DNA of 64,000 nucleotides, taken from positions 248,001 to 312,000 of the forward strand of contig NZ_JADOEL010000002.1 in the NCBI RefSeq assembly GCF_015645465.1, written 5' to 3'. Position numbers and translations under genes: made by a program. Under the pieces are notes generated by a model. That model was not told the DNA's origin. It made no database searches and saw only the letters and a program-made list of their open reading frames with translations. Positions within the stretch are counted from its first letter, which is position 1. Each line of letters opens with the position of its first letter. This stretch comes from Herminiimonas contaminans. Its GTDB lineage: Bacteria; Pseudomonadota; Gammaproteobacteria; Burkholderiales; Burkholderiaceae_D. Below, piece after piece: positions 15,219 to 56,662 of this stretch.

Positions 15219-15248
15219 TTGACAGTGCGCCCCTGCATCACCTAAAGT
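15219..15248 (+). promoter_or_regulatory. Promoter of the leuA leader
   Basis: TTGACA (perfect, 15219-15224), an 18-base spacer and TAAAGT (15243-15248). The expected start point is 15254-15256, which coincides with the ATG of the first leader peptide at 15256. Confidence 0.6.
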
Positions 15249-15255
15249 TAGCCCT

Positions 15256-15342
15256 ATGTTTTCTGCACACCACATTCCTTCCGCATCCAAGCACATCGCT
15301 GGCATCTCGCTATCGACGCTGCTATCGCTACTACTAGCTTAG
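15256..15342 (+). CDS. Leucine-rich leader peptide 1 of leuA, possibly leaderless
   Basis: A 28-codon frame, MFSAHHIPSASKHIAG then ISLSTLLSLLLA. Six of the last ten residues are Leu, and five of these six use CTA, a codon sparingly used in the neighbouring genes. It lies between a good promoter and leuA. Leucine-rich leader peptides control leucine genes by ribosome stalling in many bacteria. There is no ribosome site, and the predicted mRNA start falls on the ATG, so translation may be leaderless. The stop is TAG at 15340-15342. Confidence 0.6.
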   Translation: MFSAHHIPSASKHIAGISLSTLLSLLLA

Positions 15343-15354
15343 TAGCGTGCCCCT

Positions 15355-15370
15355 GTGTTGCCCGCAACAC
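15355..15370. promoter_or_regulatory. Palindrome GTGTTGC-NN-GCAACAC in the leuA leader
   Basis: GTGTTGC-CC-GCAACAC, 12 bases after the stop of leader peptide 1. As RNA it forms a 6-bp hairpin with a CCCG loop. It lacks a U-run, so it is not an intrinsic terminator by itself. The arms match those at 5581-5596. Confidence 0.45.
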
Positions 15371-15426
15371 ACCAGTAATACCGTCGCAGTAAATACAGCA
15401 GTACAACCGAGTTATCCGTAACCATC

Positions 15427-15537
15427 ATGCCTATCAAGCCGATTTCAGCAGTGCGCATCAATGGCGATTTGTTCGCCGGGATGAGCTTCGCTCGTTCATT
15501 GGCTTTGCTATTGCTACCGATCGGTTACCTGACCTAG
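15427..15537 (+). CDS. Leucine-rich leader peptide 2 of leuA
   Basis: A 36-codon frame, ending ARSLALLLLPIGYLT, with a run of four Leu codons (TTG CTA TTG CTA) and more Leu either side. An inner ATG at 15481 would give 18 residues. No strong ribosome site precedes either ATG. Its final codons and stop overlap the left arm of an 11-bp RNA stem (15523-15533), the layout expected if ribosome position on the Leu codons decides which RNA structure forms before leuA. Confidence 0.5.
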   Translation: MPIKPISAVRINGDLFAGMSFARSLALLLLPIGYLT

Positions 15538-15575
15538 CGCACGTGGCAGTCAGGTAGCCCATCGCCACCCCTGAC
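15523..15575 (+). promoter_or_regulatory. Mutually exclusive RNA stems before leuA
   Basis: Segment 1 (15523-15533, GGTTACCTGAC) pairs with segment 2 (15549-15559, GTCAGGTAGCC) over 11 bp with one G-U pair. The first six bases of segment 2 can instead pair with segment 3 (15570-15575, CCTGAC). Segment 1 lies 7 bases after the Leu codon run of leader 2. No U-run follows segment 3, so Rho-dependent or translational control is more likely than intrinsic termination. Confidence 0.5.
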
Positions 15576-15612
15576 GCTTACCCCGATTGAACGAAGAATT
15601 TAAGGACTTATC

Positions 15613-17271
15613 ATGATGTTGACTAACCCGGCTGCGAAATACCGCGCCTTCCCTCCCGTGCAACTCAAGGACCGCACCTGGCCAAACCGCGTGATCAGCA
15701 CACCGCCGATCTGGATGAGCACCGATTTGCGTGATGGCAACCAGGCTTTGATCGAACCGATGAACCATGAAAAGAAGCTGCGCTTCTTCGACATGCTCCT
15801 GAAAATCGGCCTGAAAGAAATTGAAGTCGCCTTCCCTTCCGCTTCGCAAACCGATTTCGATTTCGTGCGCAAGCTGATCGACGAAAAGCGTATCCCGGAC
15901 GATGTCACCATCGAAGTCCTGACCCAGGCACGCGAAGATTTGATCCGCCGTACCGTGAACTCCGTAGTTGGCTCACGTCGCGCCATCGTGCATATGTATA
16001 ACGCGACGGCACCTGCATTCCGCCGCATCGTTTTCAATATGTCGAAAGAAGAAGTCAAGGCACTCGCGGTCGCCGGTACCAAGCTGATCCGTGAATTGAC
16101 CGATGCACATCCTGAAACTGAATGGGTATTCCAGTATTCGCCGGAAACCTTCAGCATGACCGAACTCGATTTCGCCAAGGAAGTCTGCGACGCCGTATCC
16201 GAAGCATGGCAGCCTACACCTGAGCGCAAGATGATCATCAACTTGCCAGGCACGGTTGAAGCCAGCACCCCTAACGTCTACGCCGACCAGGTTGAATGGA
16301 TGCATCGCAACCTGGCGCGCCGCGACTCCATCATCCTCAGCGTGCACCCACACAATGACCGTGGTTGCGCAGTCGCTGCTGCCGAGCTGGCAGTGATGGC
16401 TGGTGCCGATCGTATCGAAGGCTGTTTGTTCGGCAATGGCGAACGTACCGGCAACGTCGACCTCGTCACGCTTGCACTGAATCTTTATTCGCAAGGCATC
16501 AATCCTGGCCTCGACTTCTCCGACATCGATGAAATCCGTCAATGTGTGGAAGAGTGCAACCAGATCCCGGTCCATCCGCGTCACCCATATGTCGGCGACC
16601 TGGTCTATACCGCCTTCTCCGGCTCGCACCAGGATGCAATCAAAAAAGGTTTTGCCAAACAAAAGCCGGATGAAATCTGGGAAGTGCCATACATGCCGGT
16701 TGATCCGGCCGATCTCGGCCGTAGCTACGACGCCGTGATTCGCGTCAACAGCCAGTCCGGTAAAGGCGGCATGACTTATTTGCTCGAACAGGAATATGGC
16801 CTGGTCTTGCCACGCCGGCTGCAAATCGAATTCAGCCGCGCCGTGCAACGCATCACCGATGAAACCGGCGGCGAAGTCGCAGCCAACGACATCCACACCA
16901 TCTTCAACAGCGAATACCTGAACGCGGTCACGCCTTACCACTACCGCAACCACCACATCGACGACTCGAAAGACGGCGAAGTGCAAATCAAGGTAGAACT
17001 GGAAAAAGATGGCCAGCCGGTCTCGATGGAGGGTAGCGGCAACGGTCCTATCGACGCCTTCATCAATGCACTCGGCCTGAACATCAAATTGATGGATTTC
17101 CATGAGCACGCAATTGGTGCAGGTGCCAGCGCGAATGCCGCCAGCTATGTAGAACTGCGCGTCAACAACGGCGTCACCCGCTTCGGTGTCGGTATTGATG
17201 GCAACATCGTCACAGCCTCCTTCCGCGCCGTACTGAGCGCGGTTAACCGTGACATCGCCCTGGCCAGCTAA
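15613..17271 (+). CDS. leuA: 2-isopropylmalate synthase (long form)
   Basis: 552 residues. LeuA joins acetyl-CoA and 2-oxoisovalerate, the committed step of leucine synthesis, and is feedback-inhibited by leucine. The catalytic barrel shows [11 protein letters not shown] (metal-binding Asp and acceptor Arg), [13 protein letters not shown] and SVHPHNDRG (metal His pair). [11 protein letters not shown] follows. The C-terminal part (about 430-552) is the regulatory domain with [10 protein letters not shown] and [10 protein letters not shown]. Length and motifs fit the class-2 IPMS common in Actinobacteria and many Burkholderiales. AAGGA is 6 bases before ATG 15613. The upstream leader peptides suggest leucine-dependent control. 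Confidence 0.96.
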
Positions 17272-56592: not shown

Positions 56593-56656
56593 AAAAAAAT
56601 AGCCCGCGTCCTTGTGGGAGCGGGCTGAATCCAATTCTTGAGGAGTTGGAGGAGAC
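56593..56656 (-). ncRNA. Candidate CU-rich small RNA with anti-Shine-Dalgarno motifs
   Basis: Predicted 64-nt transcript starting at 56656 on the minus strand. It opens with GUCUCCUCCAACUCCUC, followed by a CCAA...UUGG hairpin that shows CUCCUC in its loop. It ends with a terminator: AGCCCGC (56620-56626) pairs with GCGGGCT (56601-56607), then a run of seven U. The promoter at 56663-56691 has near-consensus boxes. It lies alone in the 367-base gap between two minus-strand genes. The only reading frame across it is not protein-like. Confidence 0.6.
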
Positions 56657-56662
56657 AGAGCC

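Follow-up and report, generated by a model that had tools for sequence, protein, structure and literature searches.

Two leucine-rich leader ORFs and a covarying RNA element before leuA in Herminiimonas contaminans and its relatives, with a probable role in leucine sensing

The window analysed here is a 64,000-nucleotide stretch of the genome of Herminiimonas contaminans (contig NZ_JADOEL010000002.1, positions 248,001 to 312,000). In the region upstream of leuA it carries a promoter, two short leucine-rich open reading frames (ORFs) and two interleaved RNA helices, which we call P1 and P2. The features are listed below in window coordinates.

15219..15248 (+): promoter; -35 box TTGACA (15219-15224), 18-nt spacer, -10 box TAAAGT (15243-15248)
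15256..15342 (+): leader ORF 1 (type A), MFSAHHIPSASKHIAGISLSTLLSLLLA; 28 codons, ATG 7 nt past the -10 box
15343..15426 (+): inter-leader region; identity of 100%, 84%, 81%, 48% and 36% in five pairwise comparisons
15427..15537 (+): leader ORF 2 (type B), MPIKPISAVRINGDLFAGMSFARSLALLLLPIGYLT; 36 codons, TAG stop within the P1 loop
15505..15516 (+): Leu run of ORF2, TTG CTA TTG CTA; the CTA at 15514-15516 is the fixed-distance Leu codon, 9 nt before P1
15516..15525 (+): 10-nt perfect palindrome ACCGATCGGT, at the foot of P1
15523..15533 (+): P1 5′ arm GGTTACCTGAC, from alignment and covariation
15543..15547 (+): P2 5′ arm GTGGC, within the P1 loop and adjoining the P1 3′ arm
15549..15559 (+): P1 3′ arm GTCAGGTAGCC, from alignment and covariation
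15564..15568 (+): P2 3′ arm GCCAC, 4 nt past P1
15570..15575 (+): CCTGAC, the third pairing segment proposed in an earlier note on this DNA; can pair with GTCAGG
15602..15606 (+): likely leuA Shine-Dalgarno sequence AAGGA, read from the sequence
15613..17271 (+): leuA, long-type 2-isopropylmalate synthase of 552 aa, a type found in Actinobacteria too

The earlier note had given the promoter boxes, the codon counts of both ORFs and the coordinates of the RNA segments, all of which are correct as read from the sequence. The window promoter is rated strong, and the leader-1 promoter of relatives is of the same kind and has the same spacing. The same genome encodes a second LeuA-like protein, 29% identical (G000:C2:80371-81858, minus strand). 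Elsewhere in the window, positions 56594-56657 (minus strand) match the Rfam family RF02278, Betaproteobacteria_toxic_sRNA, with 58.7 bits (gathering score 50).

Six of the last ten residues of ORF1 are Leu, and five of these are encoded by CTA, the rarest Leu codon of the window's genome (359 of 12,075 Leu codons, or 3.0%, in 292 long ORFs from 444 kb). Among 1594 small ORFs lying outside long ORFs in the same 444 kb, ORF1 alone has more than three CTA codons in 12. Leu density alone sets neither leader much apart, as at least five Leu in ten codons are found in 25 of these small ORFs, ORF1 and ORF2 among them. The Leu density of ORF2 being unremarkable, the case for this ORF stands on conservation. 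Type A leaders were gathered with a 4-12 nt limit and a minimum of four Leu; in the 56 non-redundant ones, 212 of the 360 Leu codons among the final 16 codons are CTA.

In near relatives the leader ORFs are better conserved than the third codon positions of leuA. ORF1 is 87/87 identical in the relatives L002 and L003, where the 5′ part of ORF2 and the part from the Leu run through P1 and P2 are 98-100% identical; the corresponding values against the window are 80% and 74% at leuA third codon positions, and 54% and 62% for sequence lying before the -35 box. L005 is a further relative, in which both of these parts are 97% identical and leuA third positions 62%. ORF1 identity is down to 44% in L004, where that of the Leu run, P1 and P2 is still 86%. 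Alignment gaps among near relatives are commoner between the ORFs and after P2 than within the ORFs; the codon-position figures for L008 were computed without gaps and are too low for that reason.

The position of the first ATG relative to the promoter was compared across loci. A promoter-like site was found at 71 of 114 loci, and the ATG scored was the first after the best such site, with no limit on distance. In 48 of the 49 family loci that bear both leaders in tandem, this ATG lies 5-9 nt past a strong -10 box (6 nt in 37 loci, 7 nt in eight, 5 nt in one and 9 nt in two), the exception being L015, with an ATG at 2 nt and the next at 6 nt. Transcription usually starts about 7 nt past the -10 box, so that the start would coincide with the leader-1 ATG itself. 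Because of this placement in 48/49 loci, leader 1 is predicted to be probably leaderless, with its ATG as the start of the mRNA. The leaderless trpL of Sinorhizobium meliloti, as described in available passages of PMC7298713, provides a precedent for leader ORFs of this kind, in that its ATG is the RNA 5′ end, a property predicted from sequence in our case. The two differ in that trpL serves Trp in an alphaproteobacterium, while the leuA leader has a second leader downstream.

The end of ORF2 runs into P1, an 11-bp helix in the window (15523-15533 with 15549-15559, one G-U pair). The earlier note had proposed an RNA stem at exactly this place, and it is conserved with compensatory changes. Two alignments were assembled: A1 holds 54 copies picked up by a scan in which both P1 and P2 were required, with near-duplicates such as L002, L044, L048, L057, L065 and L070 left out, and A2 holds 42 more diverse copies, cut at hand-picked P1/P2 anchors. 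In A1 the nine central pairs of P1 and the five of P2 are paired in 98.8% of 755 cells (91.9% in shuffles, 22-60% in slid versions), and in A2 pairing reaches 96.3% of 670 cells (97.8% for P1 and 92.8% for P2), all of these percentages for the alignments being inflated because the selection of rows itself used P1 and P2. Within P2, alignment A2 shows four pairs disrupted in 3-4 of the 42 copies each and the remaining pair in two. Double changes are better evidence than percent paired; they occur at 7 of 14 pairs in A1 and at 9 of 16 in A2, where 59 such cells compare with 14.1 in shuffles. We see that P1 carries many compensatory changes, and that P1 and P2 covary. Matches of the P1 and P2 finder in L020, L024, L085 and L097 were dropped, as they lack the conserved sequence, and an additional helix P1b (GCC with GGC) was uninformative, two of its three pairs being invariant.

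Three RNA segments that pair in alternative ways had been proposed in the earlier note. The first two are P1, and RNAalifold stretches P1 in A1 to 11 pairs that are exactly those of segments 1 and 2. Segment 3 has a counterpart in five of the 69 loci compared (0.56 expected by shuffling; L121 is absent from this set, its row being unplaceable) and was rejected as a family feature on that count. The generally conserved partner helix is instead P2, which was absent from that note. P2 alone is weak: the stretch left when the P1 5′ arm is taken away has a median of -8.2 kcal/mol, compared with -21.3 for P1, and in the window this stretch prefers pairing of segments 2 and 3. The connector between P1 and P2 is 4-10 nt long, and 4-7 nt in 58/69 loci. 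Taking about 8 nt as the connector limit, a simple H-type pseudoknot with full P1 is unlikely given 4-7 nt connectors against an 11-bp stem. The palindrome ACCGATCGGT recurs in many Burkholderiales copies, is absent from distant ones and is not accounted for by base pairs inside the element. Two of its codons, CCG at position -2 and ATC at -1, are seen in 43/69 and 42/69 loci respectively, again not in distant ones.

A Leu codon begins 8-9 nt before P1 at all 69 loci, against 16.3 expected by shuffling, the loci being related so that these are not 69 independent events. The earlier note had suggested a comparison for conserved Leu codons and compensatory stem changes, and both were found, in this spacing and in the double changes of P1 and P2; its broader claim of Leu-codon leaders before leuA gains support from the same comparison across loci. 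The third codon before P1 is a Leu codon in 61 of the 69 loci and CTA in 47. The other eight loci form one Herbaspirillum clade in which a CTA lies 8 nt before P1 in another frame; here the ORF starts with ATG, stops right at the CTA and ends in PPLAL, LLLAL or PLLAL. In this clade (L038, L042, L047, L050, L052, L054, L058 and L086) the stop of the Leu ORF overlaps the ATG of a mini-ORF (ATGA). The mini-ORF (M[TK]GCLA..) reads into P1/P2, and it is possible that the leader was reshaped here into coupled ORFs.

The frame that runs through P1 stops within the P1 arm or loop in 45/69 loci and further on, but before the end of P2, in three. In 14 loci the stop falls in the stretch separating P2 from leuA, and in seven it lies beyond the first base of the leuA start codon. 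This frame thus extends beyond P2 in 21 loci, where ribosomes would unfold P1/P2; in eight of these 21, the Leu ORF lies in another frame and stops before P1. In L117, L122, L123 and L126 the ORF2 frame crosses P1/P2 and its terminal TGA overlaps the leuA start (ATGTTGA), which suggests translational coupling to leuA at these four loci.

The standard ribosome footprint was used to place a stalled ribosome against P1. When the final Leu codon occupies the A site, the ribosome would reach no further than 3-4 nt into P1, and at the earlier Leu codons it would not touch P1 at all, so that a stall would leave P1 mostly free. The masking of segment 1 by a stalled ribosome, as claimed in the earlier note, would therefore extend to about 3-4 nt, with the rest of P1 left free. 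It would be the ribosome at the stop codon, and not the one stalled on Leu, that covers the P1 5′ arm.

Of 40 relatives' genomes searched, 39 had leuA matches, with 30 loci in all, and the 25 loci that encode the long LeuA were used; a second search, in named genomes, yielded the top 80 of 431 relatives. Both Leu-rich leaders and P1 recur before leuA outside Oxalobacteraceae too. Type A leaders (called by hand) and a type B leader or B-type RNA occur in series in Herminiimonas, Oxalicibacterium, Herbaspirillum, Noviherbaspirillum, Collimonas and Methylophilaceae. B alone is seen in Alcaligenaceae, a Pandoraea bin and Cupriavidus, and A alone in Paraburkholderia and some further lineages, while the B element is missing from family loci L020, L025, L087 and L106. 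Two leader peptides in series, which the earlier note had called unusual, are thus real and widespread in this leuA lineage. In the type-A-only loci L074, L075, L082 and L084, inspection by eye shows a hairpin with a T-run before it, not after. L137, on a Sphingomonas plasmid, has another Leu-rich short ORF upstream of leuA, whose stop lies in a long hairpin unlike P1/P2, again judged by eye.

With a covariance model, the window's genome gave one site (E 1.9e-14; next best E 0.45). Counting this genome each time, matches were found in 14 of 200 genomes of the order, all 14 just before leuA on the same strand; in eight of 369 of the class, where six of the seven others precede leuA (two of them being the same leader in one genus) and the weakest does not; and in six of 398 of the phylum, with L141 new. 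Most scanned genomes are thus without a match, in scans of a size that loses weak copies and that counts genomes with and without long LeuA together. Among 35 loci without an obvious B element, the sole match was L131 (27.9 bits with model R1, 26.0 with R2; next best locus 15.3 bits), which is a probable false positive, as no leuA was detected on that locus.

A LeuA tree was made from 107 proteins with hand-assigned labels (56 AB, 14 B, 12 A and 25 neither), the last class including L077, where hardly any upstream DNA is present, and four actinobacteria that carry an element of their own. Of the first 110 loci, 24 are absent from the tree, namely near-duplicates, distant paralogues and three that are divergent or truncated; six loci found by model hits are absent as well. 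The leader labels need 12 changes on this tree, compared with 45.7 in shuffles, and AB occurs on distant branches. This distribution fits either an ancient tandem that was lost in places or the movement of leuA between lineages together with its leader.

The closest known system is the LEU element of actinobacterial leuA, which the leuA leader resembles in build and of which it is at most a candidate member. In the available text of Seliverstov et al. 2005 (PMC1262725), the LEU element comprises a leader ORF with Leu codons, followed by RNA that can form a pseudoknot or fold in an alternative way, and a base stem that involves the Shine-Dalgarno sequence of leuA; its mode of control is called unknown there, and Streptomyces mutants at odds with classical attenuation are cited. 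Like that element, the present one lies before leuA and has a leader ORF with a Leu run followed by interleaved helices. In four actinobacterial loci from plasmid records we find the Leu run, P1 5′ arm, stop in the loop, P2 5′ arm, P1 3′ arm and P2 3′ arm in this order; shuffles scored as high in 7, 0, 0 and 2 of 60, and 7-8 nt separate the first base of the last Leu codon from P1 (read by hand). We assume that the helices scanned are the published LEU helices. Homology was not detected by covariance model, R1 and R2 giving background only (at most 10.9 bits) upstream of leuA in the actinobacterial loci L132-L135. In contrast to the LEU element, the Leu run pairs with the Shine-Dalgarno region in some lineages only, the window's duplex missing the Shine-Dalgarno sequence itself, and the proteobacterial leaders have conserved loop bases and a second, probably leaderless Leu leader upstream.

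Other known systems share fewer of these parts. Attenuation of the Escherichia coli leu operon relies on a 28-aa leader with four Leu, according to the portion of PMC6123439 available; the enterobacterial attenuator likewise places a Leu-codon leader peptide before leuA, with one peptide and a terminator where the present leader has two ORFs and no U-run terminator that we could see. The ermB system, as far as it is described in the available text of PMC8274638, also has two leader ORFs acting on one gene, but these share DNA, are drug-induced and translational, and involve no amino acid sensing. Rfam 15, searched at the gathering score over the whole window, has no family in the leader, and at E<=10 over 601 bases the only match was a chance plant microRNA family on the other strand (15.1 bits). 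No description of the leuA element was found in the accessible parts of the open-licence PMC literature, a scope that leaves out a 2004 survey of proteobacterial attenuation, and the available portion of PMC8632094, a survey of new bacterial RNAs, does not mention leuA; the element may have been described earlier elsewhere.

From these comparisons we consider it probable that leucine is sensed by ribosomes at two checkpoints in series before leuA. Comparison across loci shows both ORFs, the promoter, the Leu codons and their spacing, P1, P2 and the link to leuA. Sensing of Leu-tRNA by the ribosome is suggested by the placement of the Leu codons, the stop codon and the stems, and we infer the leaderless start, the stalling, the switch and its sign, with starvation turning leuA on. 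Checkpoint 1 would be the probably leaderless 28-codon ORF, rich in the rare codon CTA. Checkpoint 2 would be the 36-codon ORF, in which the last codon of the Leu run starts 9 nt before the 11-bp P1. When Leu-tRNA is scarce, a ribosome would halt upstream of P1, leaving P1 formed or opened at its foot only; when Leu is ample, it would move on as far as the stop codon, which lies in the P1 loop, and thereby sit on the P1 5′ arm. Since P1 and P2 are interleaved and joined by a connector of 4-10 nt, full P1 and full P2 would not easily form together, and the position of the ribosome would decide between P1 and P2, and hence the output of leuA. That starvation would raise leuA is a sign assumed from the pathway.

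A more specific form of this model, which we hold tentatively and regard as somewhat unlikely, is a gated pseudoknot. A ribosome waiting at the Leu codon 9 nt before P1 would open the bottom 3-4 pairs of P1, and the longer connector would let P2 form on the shortened P1; the knot, not a terminator, would set leuA output. The leaderless leader 1 would be a separate, initiation-sensitive Leu checkpoint, and the actinobacterial LEU element would be the other branch of one ancient leuA switch.

How the ribosome's position might be turned into leuA output is where the alternatives differ. One possibility, open to doubt, is Rho-dependent attenuation like that of tnaC, in which stalled ribosomes shield C-rich RNA and, once they are gone, Rho stops transcription before leuA. 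This would agree with the lack of a visible U-run terminator in the window, which the earlier note had also reported: the leader's one terminator-like site (15479-15497) lies inside ORF2, and a scan of 2.4 kb gave four sites, compared with 2.3 ± 1.4 in shuffles. The 40 nt past the type A stop have a C content of 0.37 and a G content of 0.20-0.24 in 53 loci; however, C exceeds G only modestly here, and the leader ORF itself has just as much C (C 0.37, G 0.20). Rho would in any case supply the output step of the two-checkpoint model and not deny that model.

Translational control of the LEU type, with the Leu run paired to the leuA Shine-Dalgarno region until a ribosome on the run frees it, seems unlikely. 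The order of parts is identical in 4/4 actinobacterial loci examined, and strong duplexes between the Leu run and the Shine-Dalgarno region are seen in Cupriavidus L136 and L138, in L116, and in L004 and L006 from the window's own genus. Against non-cognate partners, 11 of 66 loci pass the 5% level (3/69 for a control region), but against shuffles this level is reached by only 10/66 loci, where about three are expected, with a median rank of 0.35, and a general base stem of this kind was rejected for the family as a whole on that result. The window's own duplex lies upstream of the Shine-Dalgarno sequence and has a rank of 0.09. No general terminator or lock-up of the Shine-Dalgarno sequence was found across the loci.

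It is quite unlikely that P1/P2 binds a protein or small molecule and that the ORFs are incidental. In its favour, lineages poor in Leu codons still retain the RNA structure, as do L090, L094 and L127 with a single Leu in the 12 codons before P1, and the loop bases are well conserved. The near-fixed distance of the Leu codon from P1 in 69/69 loci, including the frame-changed clade of eight, speaks against this reading, as does the lack of an Rfam family in the leader at the gathering score, which leaves room for an undescribed one. Classical attenuation with an intrinsic terminator is very doubtful. A hairpin followed by a T-run precedes leuA in the distant loci L020, L021 and L023 (by eye), and at least five T in eight bases occur no more than 22 nt past P2 in 20/69 B loci, eight of them from Oxalobacteraceae, a count made with no shuffled control; in the window, however, there is no such terminator, and P2 is a 5-bp stem. 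Chance or artefact, in whose favour Leu-rich short ORFs are not rare (the 25 of 1594 given above), is contradicted by the covariation, the placement before leuA and the conservation, and is extremely improbable.

The P1/P2 element is a well-supported addition to the regulatory RNAs of leucine synthesis in Beta- and Gammaproteobacteria. Its covarying, mutable parts may offer a way into the poorly understood, terminator-less leuA leaders of the LEU type, and the locus would present a case of two Leu checkpoints in series, one of them probably on a leaderless mRNA.
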